Source: Bacillota bacterium (GTDB taxonomy: Bacteria; Bacillota; Negativicutes; CTSoil-072). From it: DNA of 64,000 bases. Position numbers and translations under genes: made by a program. Under the pieces are notes generated by a model. That model did not search any database. It worked only from the letters and a program-made list of their open reading frames with translations, and was not told where the DNA came from. Shown piece by piece: positions 14,634-45,094 of the stretch. Each line of letters opens with the position of its first letter. Within the stretch, counting starts at the first letter, position 1. The DNA lies in NCBI GenBank assembly GCA_017889545.1, contig JAGFZV010000002.1:62001-126000 (forward strand). The letters run 5' to 3'.

Positions 14634-14779
14634 GTATTTCCATGTTGAAAAAACAAGCATTTTGATGCATCTAAAGGAAAAAAACAATGCTGCGCAGTAT
14701 AATTGATTCGGGATGAGTAACCAAAAAATAAGATCGACAATGCAGGGCGTCAAATAATCGTTTGCAGGAGGTTTTTATC

Positions 14780-15715
14780 ATGACGAAAATAGCTGGAAAT
14801 TTAACGGAATTGATTGGCAATACACCCTTGCTGGAATTAGGCAATTATAGCCGCAACCGGAAATTGGGAACCAATCTAATTGTCAAACTGGAATACTTCA
14901 ATCCGCTGGGCAGCGTAAAAGACCGGGTCGGATATGCCATGATCAAAGCTGCCGAAGAGAAAGGACTTGTAGATAAAGAAACGCTGATTATTGAACCGAC
15001 CAGCGGAAATACCGGCGTAGGCCTGGCATTCGTATCCGCTGCCCGGGGCTATAAACTGATTTTGACGATGCCGGACACGATGAGCATGGAGCGGCGCAAT
15101 TTATTGAAAGCGTTGGGAGCTCAATTGGTGCTTACCCCAGGGGCAGAAGGCATGAAAGGGGCTATAGCCAAAGCGGAGGAACTGGCTGCGCAGGCGCCCA
15201 AAGCGTTTATTCCACAGCAATTTAAAAACCCGGCGAATCCGGCTATTCACCGCCAAACGACCGCGCCGGAAATTTGGCGGGATACGGACGGGAAAATCGA
15301 CATATTTGTATCTGCTGTAGGTACCGGCGGAACCATTACCGGCGTTGCCCAATTTCTCAAAGAAAAGAACCCGGCAGTGCATATTGTTGCCGTGGAACCG
15401 TTTGATTCACCGGTCTTATCGGGCGGCAAGCCTGGTCCGCACAAGATCCAGGGAATTGGCGCAGGTTTTGTGCCGGATGTGTTGGATGTCAGTTTAATTG
15501 ATGAAATCATACCGGTTCATAATGAAGATGCTTATTCCGTTTCGCGGGCCTTGTCGAAAGAAGAAGGATTGCTGGTGGGCATATCCAGCGGAGCAGCTTT
15601 GTTTGCAGCCACTCAACTGGCAAAACGGCCGGAAAACAAAGGGAAAGTCATCGTGACTTTGCTGCCTGATACGGGAGAACGTTATTTATCAACCGATCTT
15701 TTTCAAATGGATTAA
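14780..15715 (+). CDS. cysK: Cysteine synthase (O-acetylserine sulfhydrylase)
   Basis: PLP enzyme of 311 residues making cysteine from O-acetylserine and sulfide. The PLP-binding Lys is in [11 protein letters not shown] (residue 47), the substrate loop in TSGNTGVGL and the phosphate-binding loop in GTGGTITGV. The ATG at 14780 has AGGAGG 9 bases upstream; the open frame begins earlier at a TTG that contains this site and is not the start. It is the first gene behind a SAM-I riboswitch and is followed 46 bases later by an O-acetylhomoserine sulfhydrylase, so it is regulated as part of methionine supply. A cystathionine beta-synthase-like relative is possible but the length and motifs fit CysK. 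Confidence 0.92.
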
Positions 15716-34928: not shown

Positions 34929-36152
34929 GTGGAACCCAAAAACATATTAACGGTCAACGGCGGGTCATCAAGCATTAAATTCGCCTTGTTTGCAGTCGGT
35001 GAAGCGCTGCAGCGAATCTTTAAAGGATCAATTGAGAGGATTGGTTTGCCGGACGCTGTTTTTAAGGTGAAAGGGGCAGAGGCTGCAGAAGATTTTTCCC
35101 GTCCGGTGGTGGTATCGGACCATATGATGGCGGTGGACTTGCTGATGGACTGGATTGAAGACCGTATCGGACGGTCCGCAGTGACTGCGGTTGGGCATCG
35201 CGTAGTGCATGGCGGGGCGAAATATTGCGAGCCGCAAATCATCACCGAAGCCATGGTTGCTGATTTGAAGCAGCTTGCGCCGTTTGCCCCGGAGCATCTC
35301 CCACAGGAACTGTTATTGGCTGAGGCTTTTCGTAAACGATTTCCTGACCTGACACAAGTCGCCTGTTTTGATACATCTTTTCACCACACCTTGCCAAGAG
35401 TGGCGCAACTCCTGCCAATACCGCGCAAATATGAGGCGCAGGGAGTTCGACGGTACGGATTTCATGGGTTATCTTACGCGTTTTTGGTCAGAGAGCTGGC
35501 CCGTGTTGCCGGAACCGAGGCCGGTATGGGACGGGTGATCTTTGCTCATTTGGGAAATGGGGCGAGTTTGGCGGCAGTTCATTATGGGCAATCGTTCGAT
35601 ACAAGCATGTGTTTTACACCGACAGCCGGGGTTCCGATGAGCACCCGTTCCGGCGATCTCGATCCGGGACTGGCATGTTATTTGGCGCGGGAGGAAGGTA
35701 TGGATCCGGCAGGTTTTAATGAAATGGTGAATTCGCGTTCAGGGCTTTTGGGCATGTCGGAAACGAGTTCCGACATGCGCGATCTGCTGGAGCGGGAAAA
35801 GAATGATGTCAGGGCTGCCGAGGCAGTTGCCGTTTTTTGCTATCAAGTGAAGAAATGGATCGGTTCTTTCAGCGCAGCACTGGGCGGCTTGGATACTTTG
35901 GTGTTTTCCGCCGGCATCGGTGAAAATTCGCCGCAGGTCCGACAGAGGATCTGCACCGGATTGGGTTTTTTGGGAATTGAAATTGACGAAGAACGTAACT
36001 TGGCAAATGCAGCTGTAATTTCTGCTGAGAATAGCCGTGTTTTTGTCCGGATCATCCGCACAAATGAAGAATGGATGATTGCCAGTTTAGTCAGTGAAAA
36101 GTTGGGGTTGGCGCTAGGCGTGGAAACAACATATAAGGAGGGGGCAACATGA
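34929..36152 (+). CDS. ackA: Acetate kinase
   Basis: ASKHA-fold enzyme (407 residues) making ATP and acetate from acetyl phosphate. Motifs: VNGGSSSIKF (residue ~10), GHRVVHGG (~88), FDTSFHHTL (catalytic Asp region, ~146), HLGNGASL, STRSGDLDPG (~238) and TNEEWMIA near the end. The GTG at 34929 with GGGAGGTGAAGGA upstream gives the family N-terminus; the open frame extends upstream through the end of the previous gene. Its stop overlaps the uspA start (ATGA). No phosphotransacetylase gene is adjacent, so this may be a second acetate kinase or it may use acetyl phosphate from another route. Confidence 0.92.
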   Translation: MEPKNILTVNGGSSSIKFALFAVGEALQRIFKGSIERIGLPDAVFKVKGAEAAEDFSRPVVVSDHMMAVDLLMDWIEDRIGRSAVTAVGHRVVHGGAKYCEPQIITEAMVADLKQLAPFAPEHLPQELLLAEAFRKRFPDLTQVACFDTSFHHTLPRVAQLLPIPRKYEAQGVRRYGFHGLSYAFLVRELARVAGTEAGMGRVIFAHLGNGASLAAVHYGQSFDTSMCFTPTAGVPMSTRSGDLDPGLACYLAREEGMDPAGFNEMVNSRSGLLGMSETSSDMRDLLEREKNDVRAAEAVAVFCYQVKKWIGSFSAALGGLDTLVFSAGIGENSPQVRQRICTGLGFLGIEIDEERNLANAAVISAENSRVFVRIIRTNEEWMIASLVSEKLGLALGVETTYKEGAT

Positions 36153-36601
36153 AACAGCTGAAAAAAATTTTGGTGGCGTATGACGGGTCGCCGCACAGCA
36201 AACAGGCTTTAGAATGGGCGATTGATTTGAGCCGGAAGTATGGAGCTGAAGTTTGTGCCGTTCTTGTCTGGGGAACGTTTCTCGATACGGCGAGCTTTGC
36301 TTTGGTAGAAGGCGGGCCGGCCTGGGCAAGCTTAACTGCAAAAATCAAAGAAGCCCGGGAGAAAGACCTGGAAATGATGGACGAAGTAAAATTACTTGGT
36401 CAAGCGCAAAAAATAAAAATGAATACGGTCATTCTCGAAGGTGATGTCGCTACCGAGTTGATCGACTATGCCAAGAAGGAAGAGATGGATATGATTATTG
36501 CCGGCACCAGGGGACATGGCACACTCGATATTCTGCTCGGCAGCGTAACCATGAAGCTGGTCAGCCTGGCGCCGATGCCTGTGATGGTCGTTAAAGATTG
36601 A
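36149..36601 (+). CDS. Universal stress protein UspA family
   Basis: 150-residue single-domain Usp. The N-terminal KILVAYDGSPHSKQALEWAI and the C-terminal ATP-binding pattern GTRGHGTLDILLGSVT (G-2X-G-9X-G-S/T) indicate an ATP-binding member. It overlaps ackA by four bases and so is translated with it. The context (baeRF-like protein and acetate kinase) suggests a response to energy or stress state. Confidence 0.92.
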   Translation: MKQLKKILVAYDGSPHSKQALEWAIDLSRKYGAEVCAVLVWGTFLDTASFALVEGGPAWASLTAKIKEAREKDLEMMDEVKLLGQAQKIKMNTVILEGDVATELIDYAKKEEMDMIIAGTRGHGTLDILLGSVTMKLVSLAPMPVMVVKD

Positions 36602-36696
36602 TCCTTCATCCTTCATGAAAGAAGCAAAAAGAACGTCCCCTTGCTTCCTGAAAAGTGGGGGCATAATGAAGAAATGTTTGGCAGGAGGGAAGCGTT

Positions 36697-37794
36697 GTGA
36701 GCACATGTAAAAAATGTTTGATGATATCGTCTCTGCAAAATAGTAATTTCAATTCAGAAGGCGAGTGTTATTGGTGTCAGACTAATTTTCCAAACTATAA
36801 GCCAAGAGGCGAAGAAAAATTAGCAGATCTGTTGAATGAGCATCGCAGCAAATCATCTTCTGCCGACTGCATGGTGGGGGTTAGCGGCGGGAAGGACAGT
36901 ACCTACGCATTGATGGCATTAAAGGATACTTATGGACTGAATGTTGAAGCCTTTACCTATGTCCATGAGGGAACTGTCCCTGCCTCCGTGGAAAATGCAA
37001 AAAAAATGTGCATGAAATTGGATGTGAAACACCACATTGTTTCGTTGCCGGATCAAATCCATTTGCGGACATTTAAGACATTTTTTAGATCCTGGCTTGC
37101 ACACCCCAGTCTTGTTTCAGCAGGTATGACATGTGTTGCCTGCAAACATCTTCATATACTGGGCTTTGAACTGGCAAAAGAGCGAAATATTCCCATGATT
37201 GCCTGGGCTTCGACTCCTCTTGAGTGCCCTCCGTTTCTTGCAATTGGGTACAAGGGCAACAATGGTGAAGTGTATCAAAAATCCAGTCTGCTTGAAAATG
37301 CTGCTAATATGATGAAAGAAATGGTTCATTCACCGAAGTTTGTGCAGGGAGTGGTTGAACATTTCTCCACGTGCTACCAAGGGTGTATGGCTGTTTCGCC
37401 CGCTAGTAATTATTTAATAGCAAAATATCCAACCGTTACGCCAATAAAAATTTTTGATTTTATTGATTGGAACCCGCGCGTCGTTATTGATGAAATAACG
37501 CGAAAAGGATGGCAAAAACCGGTAAAAAGCGGCGATGACTGGCATTCGGATTGCTTGTTCCACCATTTTAAGGAATATATGTTTCGAAAAATGCTGGGAG
37601 TATCCTATCTGGAAGCTTACCTGAGCAATCAAATACGGTATGGATTGTTATCAAGAGATGAAGCGATGAAAAGTGTTGAGGAAAACAAAAGAATTTTTCT
37701 TAAAGAATTTCCTATTGCGATTAAAGAATTAGAAATGGATGATATTGCTGACAAAATCGATTATCAACCGTGGCAAAGCAGTGGTGACGAGTAA
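36697..37794 (+). CDS. PP-loop N-acetyl sugar amidotransferase-like protein
   Basis: 365-residue ATP pyrophosphatase of the group that includes WbpG/WbuX/PseA-like amidotransferases, which form amidino sugars of surface glycans with ammonia from HisH/HisF-type partners. The PP-loop is VSGGKDSTYAL near residue 67. N-terminal CKKCLM and CYWC cysteine pairs (residues ~4-7 and ~28-31) are family features and probably bind zinc. The start is GTG behind GGAGGGA. No HisH/HisF-like gene is adjacent, which is unusual for this family. Base use is more AT-rich than in flanking genes, hinting at transfer. A terminator follows. Confidence 0.8.
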   Translation: MSTCKKCLMISSLQNSNFNSEGECYWCQTNFPNYKPRGEEKLADLLNEHRSKSSSADCMVGVSGGKDSTYALMALKDTYGLNVEAFTYVHEGTVPASVENAKKMCMKLDVKHHIVSLPDQIHLRTFKTFFRSWLAHPSLVSAGMTCVACKHLHILGFELAKERNIPMIAWASTPLECPPFLAIGYKGNNGEVYQKSSLLENAANMMKEMVHSPKFVQGVVEHFSTCYQGCMAVSPASNYLIAKYPTVTPIKIFDFIDWNPRVVIDEITRKGWQKPVKSGDDWHSDCLFHHFKEYMFRKMLGVSYLEAYLSNQIRYGLLSRDEAMKSVEENKRIFLKEFPIAIKELEMDDIADKIDYQPWQSSGDE

Positions 37795-37815
37795 GCCACC
37801 GCAAAGAATTAATTC

Positions 37816-37857
37816 GCCGCTCTTGTTCCAGAAGGATTAAGAGCGGCTTCTGTCTTT
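37816..37857. terminator. Terminator between convergent genes
   Basis: GCCGCTCTT (37816-37824) pairs with AAGAGCGGC (37839-37847), followed by TTCTGTCTTTT on the + strand. It probably serves the amidotransferase gene and separates it from the convergent acyltransferase. Confidence 0.65.
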
Positions 37858-37862
37858 TGGCC

Positions 37863-38375
37863 TTACCATGGATAAGGATACAATTTTAATAATTCTGCCA
37901 TTTTATTCTTGCGGTAGTTTTCACGGTCATATCTGGGATTATTTTCAACGCATTTTTTTATATAATCATCCATGGTGGAAAGAACTTTGGCAGGATTTCC
38001 AGCGGCAATCGAATTGGCAGGAATGTCTCTGGTCACTACAGATCCTGCTCCGACGATTGAGTTAGGGCCGATCGAGACACCTGGCAAGATGGTTGTTCCG
38101 TAACCAATTACGCTGTTATCATGAATGGTGATGCGTCCGTAGCGGATCACATCCCGGTATTCGGGCCGGTGGTTAAAGCAAAAAGTGCCTCCGTCATGGG
38201 TAATAAAAGTTACTTTGCTGGTGATGCGTACATGGCGTCCAATGCTGATGAGATAGGGCTCGGAACCAAAATTAGGCATTCCAACCAGATTGCAGTCGTC
38301 GGCAATCTGCAATCCTTTTTTGCGCAGCTGCTTCAATTTATAATGCTTATACAATCTTTTCAACCAAACGAACAT
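37863..38375 (-). CDS. Left-handed beta-helix (hexapeptide) O-acetyltransferase
   Basis: 170-residue acyltransferase of the maltose/galactoside acetyltransferase-like group. Hexapeptide repeats are visible from ISIGRHVRI to VSIGPNSIVGAGSVVTRDIPANSIAAGNPAKVL (about residues 45-140), with a catalytic-type His in THDGG (near residue 60) and the typical GNPAK turn. I prefer the ATG at 38375 (AGGAAGG 11 bases upstream on the minus strand) over a GTG four codons earlier. It likely acetylates a sugar of a surface polysaccharide, together with the neighbouring amidotransferase. It stands alone on the minus strand. Confidence 0.85.
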   Translation of the reverse strand: MFVWLKRLYKHYKLKQLRKKGLQIADDCNLVGMPNFGSEPYLISIGRHVRITSKVTFITHDGGTFCFNHRPEYRDVIRYGRITIHDNSVIGYGTTILPGVSIGPNSIVGAGSVVTRDIPANSIAAGNPAKVLSTMDDYIKKCVENNPRYDRENYRKNKMAELLKLYPYPW

Positions 38376-38496
38376 AACAAGAAACACCTTCCTTTCGATT
38401 GAAAAATTGACAGTATATCTTGATTATACAGCATGCAATGAGAATTAAACAGAAAATTACAAATTGAGTAATTAATGCGGTGAAAAGGGTCCTTTT

Positions 38497-38547
38497 GGAC
38501 AAACTTTGGGACAAGGTATGGACAAACAGAGAAACTAGAAATATAAT
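38497..38547 (+). promoter_or_regulatory. Candidate promoter with three helically phased GGACAA repeats
   Basis: GGACAA occurs at 38497, 38509 and 38520, spaced 12 and 11 bases apart (about one helical turn), just upstream of TATAAT at 38542-38547 (a weak ATGGAC -35 lies 18 bases before it). It looks like an activator-dependent promoter for the type I secretion operon. The 365-base gap 38376-38740 contains this and the attenuator below. Confidence 0.4.
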
Positions 38548-38595
38548 AAAAGCAGACAGATAATTCTGAAAAATCTTTTTAATTTCATATTATAC

Positions 38596-38700
38596 AAGTG
38601 GATGCGCCTATATTTTACATATTCCGTTCCACTTAGCTGCATGTCAGATGTTGAAGGATCCACTTCCGGACCGACTGTTAGGGAGTGGGTCTTGTTTTTT
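38596..38700 (+). promoter_or_regulatory. Candidate transcription attenuator upstream of the type I secretion operon
   Basis: An 11-bp terminator stem forms between 38657-38667 (GATCCACTTCC) and 38681-38691 (GGGAGTGGGTC), followed by TTGTTTTTT, yet it lies just before the operon and not after a gene. An upstream segment AAGTGGAT (38596-38603) can pair either with ATCCACTT inside the left terminator arm (38658-38665), preventing termination, or with CCACTT at 38629-38634, which frees the terminator. These mutually exclusive pairings are the usual layout of a riboswitch-like or protein-controlled leader. The ligand is unknown. Confidence 0.6.
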
Positions 38701-38740
38701 CTACGGGGCAGCAGGGGGGTTGGCGAAGGAGAGGTAAGCG

Positions 38741-40882
38741 ATGAAAGATAAGCAAGAAATTGCAGCGACGGAAGAAAAAGACGATGTGCTTGATCCGAAG
38801 TTACAGTGTTTTTTAATCGTCGCCGGTGTGTTGCAAGTATTTATCAGTGAAACGGAAGTGCGTCAGGCAGTTGAAAAAGGAGTGCGGGAAACAGGGGATA
38901 TTCTGCGGATGGCCAAAACGTTCAGAGTCAAAGCGAATGTGATCCGGCCTGAATTGCAAGAATTGCCCGATATTCCTCTGCCGGCGATTGCCGTAATGAA
39001 GTCCGGTGATTGGGTTGTTATTGGACGCAATGATGATCAAAAAATTCTGGTGCTGCAACCCGGGGAAGATGATCCGCGTCCAACGCCCTTGGATGAATTT
39101 GTTGCTGCATGGAGCGGTGAAGTGCTGACTTTTCAGCGGCGGTTCAGTTGGCAGCATTTTTTGCGTCAATACAATTTAAACTGGTTTACAGGTTCAATAT
39201 TGCAGTACAAGATGTTTTTGGGGGAGGTTGTCGTAGCTTCCTTCTTCTTACAGTTATTTGCGTTGATTACTCCTCTATTCACACAGGTTGTTGTGGATAA
39301 AGTGATTGGGAATCAGGGGATTTCTACATTAAATGTGCTCGGAACCGTGTTTGTTATTTTTGCGCTTTTTCAGTCCGGAATGGGTATTTTGCGTACCTAT
39401 TTGTTGAACCATACGACCAATAAGCTGGATGTTATTTTGGGGACAAAGTTGTTTCGGCACCTGCTGTCGTTGCCGCTGCCCTACTTTGAGCACCGGCAGG
39501 TAGGGCATACTCTGATGCGGATCAGTGCACTGACTAGCATTAGGGAGTTTCTAACCGGTTCAGCGATTACTGTTTTACTGGACACTGTATTTTCAGTCGT
39601 CTTTTTTGCGGTTATGTTTTATTACAGCTGGTCCTTGACGCTCATTGCCTTGGCTGCATTGCCCGTTTATCTTTTGCAGAACGTGATTGCCACTCCGGTG
39701 TACAAACATCGTTTGGATGCGGTTTGGGCGGCGGAAGCGGATAATAATGGCTTTATGGTCGAGGCGGTGACCGGGATCCAGACAGTGAAGGCATTGGCGA
39801 TTGAGCCGCAGTTCAACCGTCGCTGGGAAGAACTCATTGCAAGTTATGTGCGGGCTACGTTCCGCAGCGCTGCCCTGAACATCAGCGTAAGCAATACCAG
39901 TGGACTTGTGCAGCGATTATCAAACCTCGTTATTCTTTGGGTTGGCGGTCATATGGTCATGGATGGCAGGCTGACACTTGGGCAGTTGATTGCATTTCAG
40001 ATGCTTGCGGGGCAGGCCAGCAATCCTGTCTTGGAATTGATTGGGAAATGGCAATCCTTTCAACAAGCCGGATTGTCCATGGAGCGGATGGGCGATATCT
40101 TGAACACCCGGCCGGAACTCGTTTATGCAGCTCCGGCGGAGCAACCACCTATTGAAGGGCGTATCCGGTTTGAAGATGTTTCTTTCCGTTATGACCCGCA
40201 TGGTCCGCTCATTCTGGATTGCATTCATCTGGATATCCCAGTAGGCAAACGGGTTGGAATTGTAGGCCGCTCCGGGTCTGGGAAAAGTACATTAACGAAG
40301 CTGGTGCAGAATTTCTATATCCCGGAGAAAGGACGGGTAATCATTGATGATTCGGATTTAAAGACTGTAGAGCCCTCGTGGCTTCGCCGCCAAATTGGCA
40401 CGGTAATGCAAGAAAGCTACCTGTTTGGCGGCAGCATCCGGGATAATATTGCAATGGCTGATCCAGGCGCTGATATGGAAGATGTGATCAAAGCCTCTCA
40501 GACTGCCGGTGCACACGAATTTATTTTGGAATTGCCGCAAGGCTACGACACAATGGTAGGAGAACGCGGTACGGCGTTGTCAGGCGGCCAGCGTCAGCGG
40601 ATTGCTATTGCCAGGGCGCTTTTAACGGGGCCAAGGATTATCATTTTCGATGAAGCCACCAGTGCGCTTGACTATGAGTCAGAGAGGATTATTACCGATA
40701 ATATGAGCGCTATTTGCGCAGGCAGGACAGCGTTGATCATCGCTCACAGACTTTCAACAGTGAAAGATTGCGATCGAATTATTGTGCTGGATCATGGACG
40801 GATTGTCGAGCAAGGTTCGCACGCCGAATTGATTGCGCAACAAGGCGTGTATCAAAAATTAGTTGCGCAGCAAGAGGGATGA
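38741..40882 (+). CDS. Type I secretion ABC transporter with inactive C39-like domain (HlyB/LapB type), copy 1
   Basis: 713-residue inner membrane ABC exporter. An N-terminal C39-like domain (about 15-140) lacks both the catalytic Cys-Gly context and the His of true C39 peptidases (GDWVVIGRN where the peptidase has HYVV), so it should bind and not cleave substrate, as in HlyB. A six-helix membrane domain (about 160-440) follows, then an ATPase with GRSGSGKST near residue 510, LSGGQRQR near 612 and IIFDEATSALD. Start behind GGAGAGG. It pairs with the HlyD-like gene that overlaps its end and with a second ABC protein downstream; the TolC-like gene at 4785 may complete the channel. Confidence 0.92.
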   Translation: MKDKQEIAATEEKDDVLDPKLQCFLIVAGVLQVFISETEVRQAVEKGVRETGDILRMAKTFRVKANVIRPELQELPDIPLPAIAVMKSGDWVVIGRNDDQKILVLQPGEDDPRPTPLDEFVAAWSGEVLTFQRRFSWQHFLRQYNLNWFTGSILQYKMFLGEVVVASFFLQLFALITPLFTQVVVDKVIGNQGISTLNVLGTVFVIFALFQSGMGILRTYLLNHTTNKLDVILGTKLFRHLLSLPLPYFEHRQVGHTLMRISALTSIREFLTGSAITVLLDTVFSVVFFAVMFYYSWSLTLIALAALPVYLLQNVIATPVYKHRLDAVWAAEADNNGFMVEAVTGIQTVKALAIEPQFNRRWEELIASYVRATFRSAALNISVSNTSGLVQRLSNLVILWVGGHMVMDGRLTLGQLIAFQMLAGQASNPVLELIGKWQSFQQAGLSMERMGDILNTRPELVYAAPAEQPPIEGRIRFEDVSFRYDPHGPLILDCIHLDIPVGKRVGIVGRSGSGKSTLTKLVQNFYIPEKGRVIIDDSDLKTVEPSWLRRQIGTVMQESYLFGGSIRDNIAMADPGADMEDVIKASQTAGAHEFILELPQGYDTMVGERGTALSGGQRQRIAIARALLTGPRIIIFDEATSALDYESERIITDNMSAICAGRTALIIAHRLSTVKDCDRIIVLDHGRIVEQGSHAELIAQQGVYQKLVAQQEG

Positions 40883-40884
40883 TG

Positions 40885-42249
40885 ATGAATAAGAAATGGA
40901 GACCTTGGAATTTATTTAGAAAGGAAAGTGGTCGAAAACTTACCCGGCGGGAAACCGAATTTTTGCCTGCTGTCCTGGAAGTGACTGAGACTCCGCCGTC
41001 GCCTCTTGGCAGAATATTGTTATGGACGATTATTGGTTTGACAGCAGCGGTCGTTGTATGGTCCGTTTTTGGCCGCGTCGATGAGGTTGCCCTGGCTCCC
41101 GGAAAAATCATTCCGATGGGGCAAGTGAAACCATTGCAGGCGGAGGATAAGGGAATTGTAAAACAGATATACATCCATGAAGGGCAGCGAGTAAAAAAAG
41201 GAGAAACGCTGATGGAATTGGACAGGGTCATATCTGCTGCGGATGTGGAACGGATCAGGAAGGAAGTCCTGTACTATACACTGGAAATTCAGCGGCTTTC
41301 GGCGGAAAAGGAACGTCGTCCGTTTACACCACTCCGCAACGGGGAAATCGATCCGCAAAACATTGATTTTCAAATTCAATTGTACAACAGCCGCAATAAT
41401 GAATATCGGGCAAAAGTTGGCGCTGCCGAAGATGGTGTCCGACAAAACGAAGCTGCATTGGAGATGGCTGTGATTAACCGGAATAAATTGTCAGACCAAT
41501 TAGCGGTGGCTGCTGATAAGGAAGAACGAATTGAAAGACTGCTTGAACAAAATGCAATCGCATTATTTCAAGTGATGGATCAAAGATCAAGACGAATGGA
41601 ATTGGAACAAAATTTGGCGGCTCAAGAAAAAGAAATCGTTCGCAGCCGGGCAGTTCTTGCACAAAGCAAGAAAAATATGGAAAGTGTTGTAGCTGAACAT
41701 GACCGTGAGGTTGGCACGAAACTGTTGGAAGATCAAAAACAATTGGCGGCGTATCAAGCGGAACTAAAAAAAGTGGAAGAGAAGGACCGGCTGACCAAGA
41801 TTATCGCTCCCGCTGACGGGACGGTAAGCCAATTTTCCGTTCATTCACCGGGTGCCATAGTCACAACGGCTCAGGTCTTGATGGTTTTGGTTCCCAATGA
41901 TGTTGAACTGGAAGTGGAAGCGTGGGCTGCAAACAAAGATATTGGGTTCATTCGCATCGGTCAGATGGCAGAAGTGAAGATTGACACGTTTAATTTTCAA
42001 AAATACGGTGTGATTGCTGCGGAAGTGGTCGATATTAATCCGGATGCGGAACAGGATAAAGAGAAAAACTTTGCGTATCGTGTGCGGTTGAAATTGGCGA
42101 AAGACAGCGTGGCAGTCAATGATAAAATGATCCCGCTGACTCCTGGAATGACCGCTATGGCCGAAATAAAAATTCGACAGAAGCGGGTAATCGAGTATTT
42201 CCTGGATCCATTCCGGCAGTATCAGAGCGAGGCGCTGAGGGAGAGGTAA
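40885..42249 (+). CDS. HlyD-family membrane fusion protein
   Basis: Periplasmic adaptor of type I secretion, 454 residues. A cytosolic N-terminus (about 1-45) precedes one membrane helix (about 46-67), then a lipoyl half-motif (VKPLQAEDKGIVKQIYIHEGQRVKKGETL), a long coiled coil (about 115-300), the second lipoyl half (RLTKIIAPADGTVSQFSVHSPG) and beta-barrel domains. Three in-frame ATGs overlap the stop of the ABC gene; the third (40885) has GAGGG at the best spacing. The open frame extending back to 40714 is only read-through of the ABC gene in another frame. It lies between two ABC genes with no gap. Confidence 0.93.
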   Translation: MNKKWRPWNLFRKESGRKLTRRETEFLPAVLEVTETPPSPLGRILLWTIIGLTAAVVVWSVFGRVDEVALAPGKIIPMGQVKPLQAEDKGIVKQIYIHEGQRVKKGETLMELDRVISAADVERIRKEVLYYTLEIQRLSAEKERRPFTPLRNGEIDPQNIDFQIQLYNSRNNEYRAKVGAAEDGVRQNEAALEMAVINRNKLSDQLAVAADKEERIERLLEQNAIALFQVMDQRSRRMELEQNLAAQEKEIVRSRAVLAQSKKNMESVVAEHDREVGTKLLEDQKQLAAYQAELKKVEEKDRLTKIIAPADGTVSQFSVHSPGAIVTTAQVLMVLVPNDVELEVEAWAANKDIGFIRIGQMAEVKIDTFNFQKYGVIAAEVVDINPDAEQDKEKNFAYRVRLKLAKDSVAVNDKMIPLTPGMTAMAEIKIRQKRVIEYFLDPFRQYQSEALRER

Positions 42250-42252
42250 CAA

Positions 42253-44364
42253 ATGGAGAAATTGGACACCGGACTGCTTAGTTTGGTTAAATTAGCAAAA
42301 TTGCTGGGTATTCCTGCGGATCCAAACCAGATGCAGCGTGCTTATGCGGCTGGTGAAGAAGGCATGAACCAGGTCGCCATTCTCCGGGCGGCTAAGGACT
42401 TGGAACTAAAGGCTTCTTTATTGCGCCCAAATCGTGAGACCTTGGCGCAACTGCCGTTCCCTGCGATTGCTATTCTCACGAATGGCAATTATGTGGTGAT
42501 CATCCGCAGTTATGGCGCCAATTTGATTATTGACGACCCTTACCGTAAACAGCCGTTTTATATTCCCTTGGCCCAATTTCAAAAAGCCTGGAGCGGAGAA
42601 ATCATTTTGCTTGTTCGCCGCCCGACGATCAAAACAGCCCTGCAGGAATTCGGAATGAATTTATTTCTGCCTGTGATAGGAAAATATCGAAGTATACTGC
42701 TAAAAGTATTGTTTATGTCATTTATTTTGCAGTTATTTGGGTTGATTGCACCACTTTTTATGCAAGTAATCATTGATCGGGTGCTGGTTCACCGCAGCTT
42801 GAGCACGTTGGATATTCTTGTGGCCGGCATGGTTGCGATTGCTGTTTTTCAGGCATGGATTACTGCTTTGCGCGCGTATCTGTTTACCAATACTACCAAT
42901 AAAATTGACGCTTCACTCAGTAGTCTGCTTTTTCGTCATGTTACCGCCTTGCCCCTTAGTTATTATGAGAAATGGCAGGTCGGCGATATTGTTTCCCGGA
43001 TCCGTGAAGTAGAAACCATTCGTAATTTCCTGACGGGAACGGCCTTAACCGTTGTTTTGGACATTTTGTTCGCCATCGTATATATCGGGGTAATGCTGAC
43101 CTATAGTACGACCCTCAGTCTTACTCTCTTAGTCGTACTGCCGTTTTTCATTATTTTAAATTTGCTGCTTAGTCCCTGGTTCCGCCGCCTGATCAATCAA
43201 CGCTTTCAAGCGGCTGCAGCAAACCAGTCCTTTTTGATCGAAGCGGTTACCGGGATCCAAACCGTAAAATCAATGGCAGTCGAGGCTAACTTTGCCCGTC
43301 GATATGAGGAGGGATTAGTACGGTTTGTAAAAGCCGCTTTTTCGACAACCAATTTATCTAATGTGGCCGAGAACATCGGCGGTTTTGCACAGCAAGCCTT
43401 CCAACTGAGTATTCTCTGGATCGGCGCCCGGGCGGTAATTGATCAAAAATTGACAGTTGGCGAATTGATTGCGTTTCAGATGCTGGCCGGTCAAGTGATC
43501 GCGCCGATCTTACGACTGGTCAATACTTGGCAGTACTTCCAGCAAACCCGAGTTTCTGTTGACCGGCTTGGCGATATTTTGAAAGAACCGGCAGAGCCAG
43601 CGTTTAATCCAAATCGAACGACACTGCCGGAAATCCAGGGCGATATTAAATTGGATAGGCTGACCTTCCGCTATCGGGCAGAGGGTAATGAAATTCTGCG
43701 TCAAATCAGTCTTCACATCAAACCGGGTACCCGTGTGGGCATTGTAGGGCGCTCCGGTTCGGGGAAAAGCACATTGACCAAATTGATTCAAAGGCTTTAT
43801 GTCCCGGAAACCGGCAGTGTTTTTATTGATGGCGTTGATCTTGGTCAAGTCGAGCCTGCCTGGCTGCGTCGTCAGATCGGCGTAGTTTTGCAGGAAGATT
43901 TTCTCTTCAATGGAACCGTGATGGAAAACATTGCCATCGCCCGCGACACGGCATCATTGGAAGAAGTGAAGCATGTTGCGGTTATGGCGGGAGCGGATGA
44001 ATTTATTATGGAATTGCCGGACGGATATGATACCAAAGTGGGAGAACGGGGTTCTTTGCTGTCCGGCGGGCAGCGGCAGCGGATTGCCATTGCCCGTGCG
44101 CTGCTGAATAATCCCAAGATACTGATTTTTGACGAAGCGACCAGTGCTTTGGACTATGAATCGGAACGGATTATTATGAACAATCTCGATCAAATTGCAC
44201 AAGGGCGCACGATGCTCCTCATCGCACATAGATTGTCAACTGTCCGGCGAAGTGATTTGATCATTGTCCTGGACCGTGGACAGGTGGTCGAGCAAGGGAC
44301 CCATGAAGAACTGGTGGCTCGTGGAGAATACTATTATCAGATGGTTCAGCAGCAACAATTATAG
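42253..44364 (+). CDS. Type I secretion ABC transporter with inactive C39-like domain, copy 2
   Basis: 703-residue paralogue of the gene at 38741, with the same order: C39-like domain (about 1-135, again no catalytic Cys or His, with NGNYVVIIRS), membrane domain (about 155-430) and ATPase (GRSGSGKST near 500, LSGGQRQR near 602, LIFDEATSALD). It starts three bases after the HlyD gene behind GGGAGAGG. The two ABC proteins are similar throughout and probably arose by duplication; they may form a heterodimer around one adaptor or serve two substrates. No RTX-like or glycine-zipper substrate gene is in the operon. Confidence 0.92.
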   Translation: MEKLDTGLLSLVKLAKLLGIPADPNQMQRAYAAGEEGMNQVAILRAAKDLELKASLLRPNRETLAQLPFPAIAILTNGNYVVIIRSYGANLIIDDPYRKQPFYIPLAQFQKAWSGEIILLVRRPTIKTALQEFGMNLFLPVIGKYRSILLKVLFMSFILQLFGLIAPLFMQVIIDRVLVHRSLSTLDILVAGMVAIAVFQAWITALRAYLFTNTTNKIDASLSSLLFRHVTALPLSYYEKWQVGDIVSRIREVETIRNFLTGTALTVVLDILFAIVYIGVMLTYSTTLSLTLLVVLPFFIILNLLLSPWFRRLINQRFQAAAANQSFLIEAVTGIQTVKSMAVEANFARRYEEGLVRFVKAAFSTTNLSNVAENIGGFAQQAFQLSILWIGARAVIDQKLTVGELIAFQMLAGQVIAPILRLVNTWQYFQQTRVSVDRLGDILKEPAEPAFNPNRTTLPEIQGDIKLDRLTFRYRAEGNEILRQISLHIKPGTRVGIVGRSGSGKSTLTKLIQRLYVPETGSVFIDGVDLGQVEPAWLRRQIGVVLQEDFLFNGTVMENIAIARDTASLEEVKHVAVMAGADEFIMELPDGYDTKVGERGSLLSGGQRQRIAIARALLNNPKILIFDEATSALDYESERIIMNNLDQIAQGRTMLLIAHRLSTVRRSDLIIVLDRGQVVEQGTHEELVARGEYYYQMVQQQQL

Positions 44365-44743: not shown

Positions 44744-44866
44744 TCATATTTGCTGTATAACCAAATATGACGTAGGAGACGCATTGAGGCATAAAACGTA
44801 TGTGGTCACTTGTTTTATGCGGAGCGAGTAGTGAAACCGCCCCTGTTTTCTACTGGGGTGGTTTTT
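44744..44866 (+). ncRNA. Structured leader RNA element with terminator, copy 1
   Basis: Three hairpins in order. P1: TCATATTTG (44744-44752) with CAAATATGA (44762-44770). P2: GCATAAAAC (44789-44797) with GTTTTATGC (44812-44820), closing the loop GTATGTGGTCACTT. Terminator: ACCGCCCC (44836-44843) with GGGGTGGT (44855-44862), then TTTTT. The P2 loop bases GGTCACT can instead pair with AGTGAAACC just after P2, which would take the left terminator arm and allow read-through. The same architecture recurs in copy 2. I cannot match it to a named riboswitch class. Confidence 0.7.
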
Positions 44867-44894: not shown

Positions 44895-45021
44895 TCATAT
44901 TTGATGTCCTAATCAAATAATGATAGTGGAGATGCGTTGAAACATAAAACGTATGTGGTCACTTGTTTTATGTGGAGCAAGTAGTGAAACCACCCCTGTA
45001 TTTGTGCTGGGGTGGTTTTTT
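44895..45021 (+). ncRNA. Structured leader RNA element with terminator, copy 2
   Basis: Repeats the order of copy 1. P1: TCATATTTG (44895-44903) with CAAATAATGA (44914-44923). P2: ACATAAAAC (44942-44950) with GTTTTATGT (44965-44973), around the identical 14-base loop. Terminator: ACCACCCC (44989-44996) with GGGGTGGT (45009-45016), then T6. Relative to copy 1, the base of P2 changes from G-C to A-T, a compensatory change that supports the helix. The conserved linker GGAGAYGCRTTGA precedes P2 in both copies. The first gene of the operon begins 74 bases later. Confidence 0.7.
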
Positions 45022-45094
45022 ATTCTCTAAAACAAGTTTAACGTAAGTTCTTTGGCAAGAAAGAAGCAAAAATAAATGAATGGGGGGGCGTACT

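Follow-up and report, generated by a model that had tools for sequence, protein, structure and literature searches.

A candidate default-off attenuator with three exclusive pairings in the leader of a type I secretion operon

Results

The leader of a type I secretion operon found in the window (the whole analysed stretch of 64,000 nucleotides) contains an intrinsic terminator whose left arm can be captured by an upstream strand; the same strand can pair instead with an element located between the two. We interpret this arrangement, which was derived from one sequence, as a transcription attenuator that would keep the operon off by default, i.e. as a working switch of a known kind but an orphan example. 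We regard the chances that this interpretation is correct as about even.

The operon and its leader

The operon is encoded on the plus strand and has the order HlyB-HlyD-HlyB, with the ABC and C39-like domains assigned by means of Pfam. Its first gene (38741..40882) codes for an HlyB-type permease/ATPase with a C39-like domain (TIGR01846, 847.9 bits; cut-off 725.55). It is followed by an HlyD-type adaptor (40885..42249; TIGR01843, 337.7 bits; cut-off 208.65), whose start is 40879, 40882 or 40885 (three consecutive ATG codons), and by a second HlyB-type permease/ATPase (42253..44364; TIGR01846, 867.5 bits). All three scores exceed the respective cut-offs, which supports the assignment as type I secretion operon made in the first-pass annotation. 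On its other side, the leader is bounded by a divergent acetyltransferase-like gene (37863-38387, minus strand; Pfam Hexapep).

The best promoter within 36000-40000 is the plus-strand site TGGACA-17-TATAAT (38519..38547), which matches the consensus at 11 of 12 positions; transcription starting from it would begin near 38554. Two weaker candidates with 9/12 matches each are located at 38536-38564 and 38566-38593. The latter would start the transcript inside strand 1 (see below) and would remove the switch. By direct reading, direct repeats TGGACAAAC at 38496 and 38519 and a near copy GGGACAAG at 38508 were identified on the plus strand (38496..38527). Their spacing is 11-12 bp, and the copy at 38519 shares bases with the -35 hexamer; by their appearance, these repeats look like an operator and resemble an activator site.

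Between promoter and gene 1, a well supported intrinsic terminator is predicted at 38655..38700 of the plus strand by both scan and folding. Its arms AGGATCCACTTCC (38655-38667) and GGGAGTGGGTCTT (38681-38693) form a stem of 12-13 bp plus three inner pairs, which reaches -20.8 kcal/mol when folded alone and is directly followed on its 3' side by GTTTTTT, ending at 38700. The distance from the terminator end to the ATG of the operon (38741) is 40 nt. Position and T-run are as described in the first-pass annotation; the 11-bp stem given there proved to be slightly longer. A simple terminator scan missed 38655-38693, probably since the loop was limited to 8 nt, and a second scan found the site. 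Termination at 38655-38693 is presumably efficient. A scan with a sigma-70-type consensus gave no plus-strand promoter match beginning at 38567-39147; judging by this consensus, transcription of the operon must therefore cross the terminator.

Promoter and terminator delimit a transcript of approximately 38554-38700. The leader might also be read as an independent unit, encoding a small RNA about 145 nt long and carrying a promoter and a terminator of its own, from which the operon is reached by read-through. We consider this quite improbable: neither the class genomes searched nor Rfam contained a relative, and a small RNA alone would leave the exclusive pairings described in the following unexplained.

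Alternative pairings and folding energies

Strand 1, AAGTGGAT (38596..38603, plus strand), is common to both alternative pairings, as deduced from pairing analysis and shuffles. One of its partners is the core of strand 3, ATCCACTT (38658..38665, plus strand), which can pair either with strand 1, giving the antiterminator, or with the right arm of the terminator. In the antiterminator, 8/8 bases of the two strands, which are 54 nt apart, are paired. The other partner is strand 2, TCCACTT (38628..38634, plus strand), which pairs with the first seven bases of strand 1 (7/7); the resulting helix P1, an anti-antiterminator, reaches 10 bp by pairing GCG 38604-38606 with CGT 38625-38627. Outside its pairing strands, this first hairpin comprises 24 nt (38604..38627, plus strand), which according to the folds form the GCG/CGT helix, a weak AU helix and a small loop. 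An apical part of 24 nt is small for a classic aptamer. Thus, the exclusive pairing of an upstream strand with either the left arm of the terminator or CCACTT, as noted in the first pass, exists at the expected place and comprises 8 bp and 7 bp, respectively.

A 49-codon frame (38602-38751) overlaps the transporter start, stays open across strand 2 and the terminator, and might be taken as a leader peptide for ribosome-dependent attenuation. Direct reading showed neither a Shine-Dalgarno sequence at a usable distance nor a run of a single amino acid, however, and the frame has no NCBIfam match. Moreover, a ribosome starting at 38602 would be expected to cover strand 1 and to block the antiterminator as well, which makes this mechanism scarcely credible.

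For a transcript ending at 38670, the antiterminator has an energy of -20.6 kcal/mol and the best P1-containing fold one of -19.8 kcal/mol. By these computed values, the two upstream pairings differ very little in energy as long as the left arm is the only part of the terminator to have emerged, and the energies would suit a switch. For the transcript to 38696, we determined -36.7 kcal/mol for P1 plus terminator, -31.9 kcal/mol for the antiterminator, and -29.0 kcal/mol for the terminator with strand 1 unpaired; the corresponding values for the transcript to 38708 are -37.7, -31.9, and -31.0 kcal/mol. With P1, the terminator is ahead by 4.8 to 5.8 kcal/mol, whereas without P1 the antiterminator is ahead by 2.9 kcal/mol (to 38696) and by just 0.9 kcal/mol (to 38708). 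As the terminator wins with P1 and the antiterminator without it, P1 is the pivot of the outcome. The narrow gap at 38708 does not alter our estimate of the odds, since the decision to terminate falls at about 38696-38700.

Pairing probabilities were computed for growing transcripts and describe equilibrium folding, ignoring kinetics. P1 has a probability of 0.99 at 38660 and the antiterminator one of 0.91 at 38666; at 38672 the values are 0.52 (P1) versus 0.48 (antiterminator), and from 38675 to 38684 P1 is favoured at a ratio of about 2:1. From 38690 on, the pairing probability of the terminator is above 0.99. Being local and the first to form, P1 would be the likely default. Three exclusive pairings and switch-like energies agree with the three-state leader postulated in the first-pass annotation; for a riboswitch type rather than a protein-dependent one, we found nothing pointing that way.

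Based on these findings, the attenuator would operate as follows. RNA polymerase would start near 38554, and strand 1 (38596-38603) would pair with the emerging strand 2 (38628-38634) and be held away from the terminator, which would close at 38655-38693, so that most transcripts would stop before gene 1. If strand 2 were occupied or strand 1 freed during the passage of the polymerase through about 38665-38685, the left arm would be captured by strand 1; the terminator would be blocked and the operon transcribed. The input, acting on the first hairpin, might be a small molecule, an RNA-binding protein or a trans RNA.

Significance of the arrangement

In order to judge these pairings, sequences were randomized. 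The three-way arrangement occurred in 0/5000 dinucleotide shuffles of the 102-nt leader combined with the real terminator arm, in a test that was framed post hoc; 10/5000 of these shuffled leaders had an exact duplex of at least 8 nt with the left arm. The pattern AAGTGGAT-N40-60-ATCCACTT, which is also a post-hoc choice, exists once in the window and was seen in 0/100 shuffles. A scan of the window for terminator-like sites yielded 16, and only the one at 38655 has a three-way arrangement with 8 + 7 nt. At 1260, the arrangement is present in a weaker form (6 and 5 nt; 3% of 300 shuffles).

The alternative to a switch is a plain leader terminator, which passes a fixed share of polymerases and lowers transporter expression, the additional pairings being due to chance. 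This is a distinct possibility, short of probable. The three-way result and the energies, which are balanced as a switch requires, argue against it; the thermodynamic occlusion of the left arm by the upstream sequence speaks in its favour. Occlusion was 0.633 compared to a shuffle mean of 0.257, and 3.4% of 1000 shuffles gave an equal or higher value, which is a modest signal and weaker than the three-way result. A better score was obtained for the minus-strand site 15258-15228 (occlusion 0.985; 0.5% of 200 shuffles). For this terminator-like site, which is located opposite the open frame 14762-15715, the upstream sequence provides one partner of the left arm, 8 nt long, and no second one. The same test gave 1.5% and 15% for two c-di-GMP-II terminators (44836 and 44988), 50% for the terminator of a SAM riboswitch and 37% for that of a TPP riboswitch, each based on 200 shuffles. 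Since riboswitch terminators scored between 1.5% and 50% and site 15258 scored 0.5%, the occlusion test is neither specific nor sensitive. The overall stability of the leader is unremarkable (z -1.47; 17/200 shuffles fold equally well).

Search for related leaders

In the collection compared, the genome is the sole member of its family and order, so that there was no close relative to compare; comparisons were class-wide. Searching 300 class genomes with the leader DNA (two candidates scored per genome) gave, besides the leader itself, matches of at most 42 bases with E-values of 8.5e-4 or worse, none of which spans the attenuator; many of these short matches fall in the AT-rich stretch 5' of strand 1. 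A covariance model built on the single leader (two identical rows) identified only the leader itself in its own genome, itself plus two weak matches in the window, and no convincing copy in 379 other class genomes searched with stricter filters. In the latter, two weak matches (28.2 and 23.1 bits) were judged to be due to chance: one starts within an open frame that is MotB-like by eye and overruns its end, the other lies elsewhere and is unrelated. An Rfam search at these two loci gave no match, and neither did the covariance model on 37 retrieved loci up to E = 10.

The transporter has matches at E ≤ 1e-180 in 71 of the 300 class genomes, including its own. We compared 35 upstream regions, namely all 29 of the loci L075-L103 and six of 28 from another set (L028, L029, L030, L031, L052, L054), which originate from Pelosinus, Selenomonas, and a Selenomonadaceae bin; the gene starts were assigned heuristically, and part of them may be inaccurate. 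A permissive scan detected a terminator-like site upstream of the transporter gene at 22 loci and none at the other 13. By direct reading, several of these sites trail an upstream gene instead of sitting in a leader of their own. For none of the 22 terminators does the left arm have an exact upstream partner of at least 8 nt (the best has 6), and the leaders are not homologous. In addition, direct reading of the paralogous operon in the same genome showed a terminator-like hairpin that separates the transporter gene from a repeat-like gene upstream. Both the related loci and this paralogous operon fit the plain leader terminator introduced above. Conservation of the alternative pairings in relatives, whose absence the first-pass annotation had listed as a refuting sign, was observed neither among the 22 related terminators nor, as a convincing copy, in the 379 genomes. 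As no homologous leader was found, this result is a lack of support rather than a refutation of the attenuator.

At the loci L023, L082, L083, L085, L087, L102, and L103, the transporter gene follows the apparent end of a secreted repeat-protein gene, with an intervening hairpin whose T-run is sometimes poor. A hairpin between repeat-protein gene and transporter is possibly a widespread means of adjusting the amount of substrate relative to that of the transporter. Searching 34 related loci (L029 left out), Rfam detected no aptamer immediately 5' of the transporter gene; at L086, a c-di-AMP riboswitch lies some 800 bases 5' of that gene and is separated from it by an open frame. Two tRNA matches each were found in L081 (3882-4141) and L089 (3860-4053), loci from two genomes of the class; they precede the related secretion operon by no more than about 500 bases and have the same orientation. 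Among the literature searched, no title addresses a leader of this kind 5' of a type I secretion operon.

Candidate inputs and implications

The first-pass annotation had recognised no aptamer, and indeed no riboswitch model of Rfam matches the leader. Up to E = 10, three matches of other kinds were listed, all far below their gathering scores. Rfam contains T-box models, and none of these matches the leader either. One possible input of the attenuator is CsrA: by binding to GGA motifs at 38600 (strand 1) and 38656 (left arm of the terminator), this protein might set the switch. The genome has one CsrA gene and, according to PMC5338858, there is a precedent in Legionella, where CsrA reportedly stabilises an antiterminator conformation, within a coding sequence and against Rho-dependent termination. 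However, five GGA in 187 nt are ordinary, as this number is reached or exceeded in 25% of window stretches of the same length; the best match to the CsrA consensus is 8/12, and the GGA at 38600 is paired within P1. We consider a role of CsrA very unlikely.

A more far-reaching version of the attenuator would be an undescribed kind of RNA switch that has a ligand or protein of its own and uses the 5' strand of a compact sensing hairpin also as antiterminator; the type I secretion operon under its control would belong to a lineage that is alone in its order among the genomes compared. We deem this unlikely. Should the switch be functional, RNA folding after transcription start would decide on the secretion of type I substrates in this lineage, which probably belongs to the Negativicutes as judged by hits in Pelosinus and Selenomonas; the export of proteins and that of polysaccharides would then be governed by RNA in two adjacent units. 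Downstream of the operon, tandem c-di-GMP-II aptamers (44768-44851 and 44921-45004), each ending in a terminator (44836-44862 and 44988-45017), precede a Wza-like polysaccharide export gene at 45080. As an orphan for which no relatives were found, the leader offers a testable case and not yet a general principle.

Comparison with known systems

The two c-di-GMP-II elements located 6 kb downstream exemplify riboswitches of the terminator type, which likewise combine a leader terminator with alternative folds 5' of a gene; unlike these, the leader described here has no Rfam riboswitch match. In systems of the LicT/SacY type (BglG family), the antiterminator is a single short hairpin overlapping the left arm of the terminator. 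This overlap also exists here, whereas the pairing strands are 54 nt apart.

The hlyCABD operon of Escherichia coli is a type I secretion operon, too, and is controlled after initiation by RfaH-dependent elongation (PMC12846084). In contrast, the features of our leader are RNA pairings, and only one gene with a NusG domain was found in the assembly, which is about 96% complete; a specialised paralogue resembling RfaH or LoaP was not seen there.

The arrangement resembles the PyrR-controlled pyr attenuators of Bacillus subtilis. Their anti-antiterminator hairpin, as described in PMC4347634 and PMC7430163, sequesters part of the antiterminator and favours the terminator. In the pyr scheme, strand B is common to the pairings A-B and B-C (PMC7430163), whereas in our leader the antiterminator is formed with the 5' strand of the first hairpin; the pyr genes also differ from the secretion genes. 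The PyrR-binding consensus ARUCCAGAGAGGYU, as given in that source, has nine matches with at most three mismatches in the window and none in the leader, which consequently does not belong to the PyrR family. What it shares with the pyr attenuators is the logic: three exclusive structures and an upstream hairpin that withholds part of the antiterminator.
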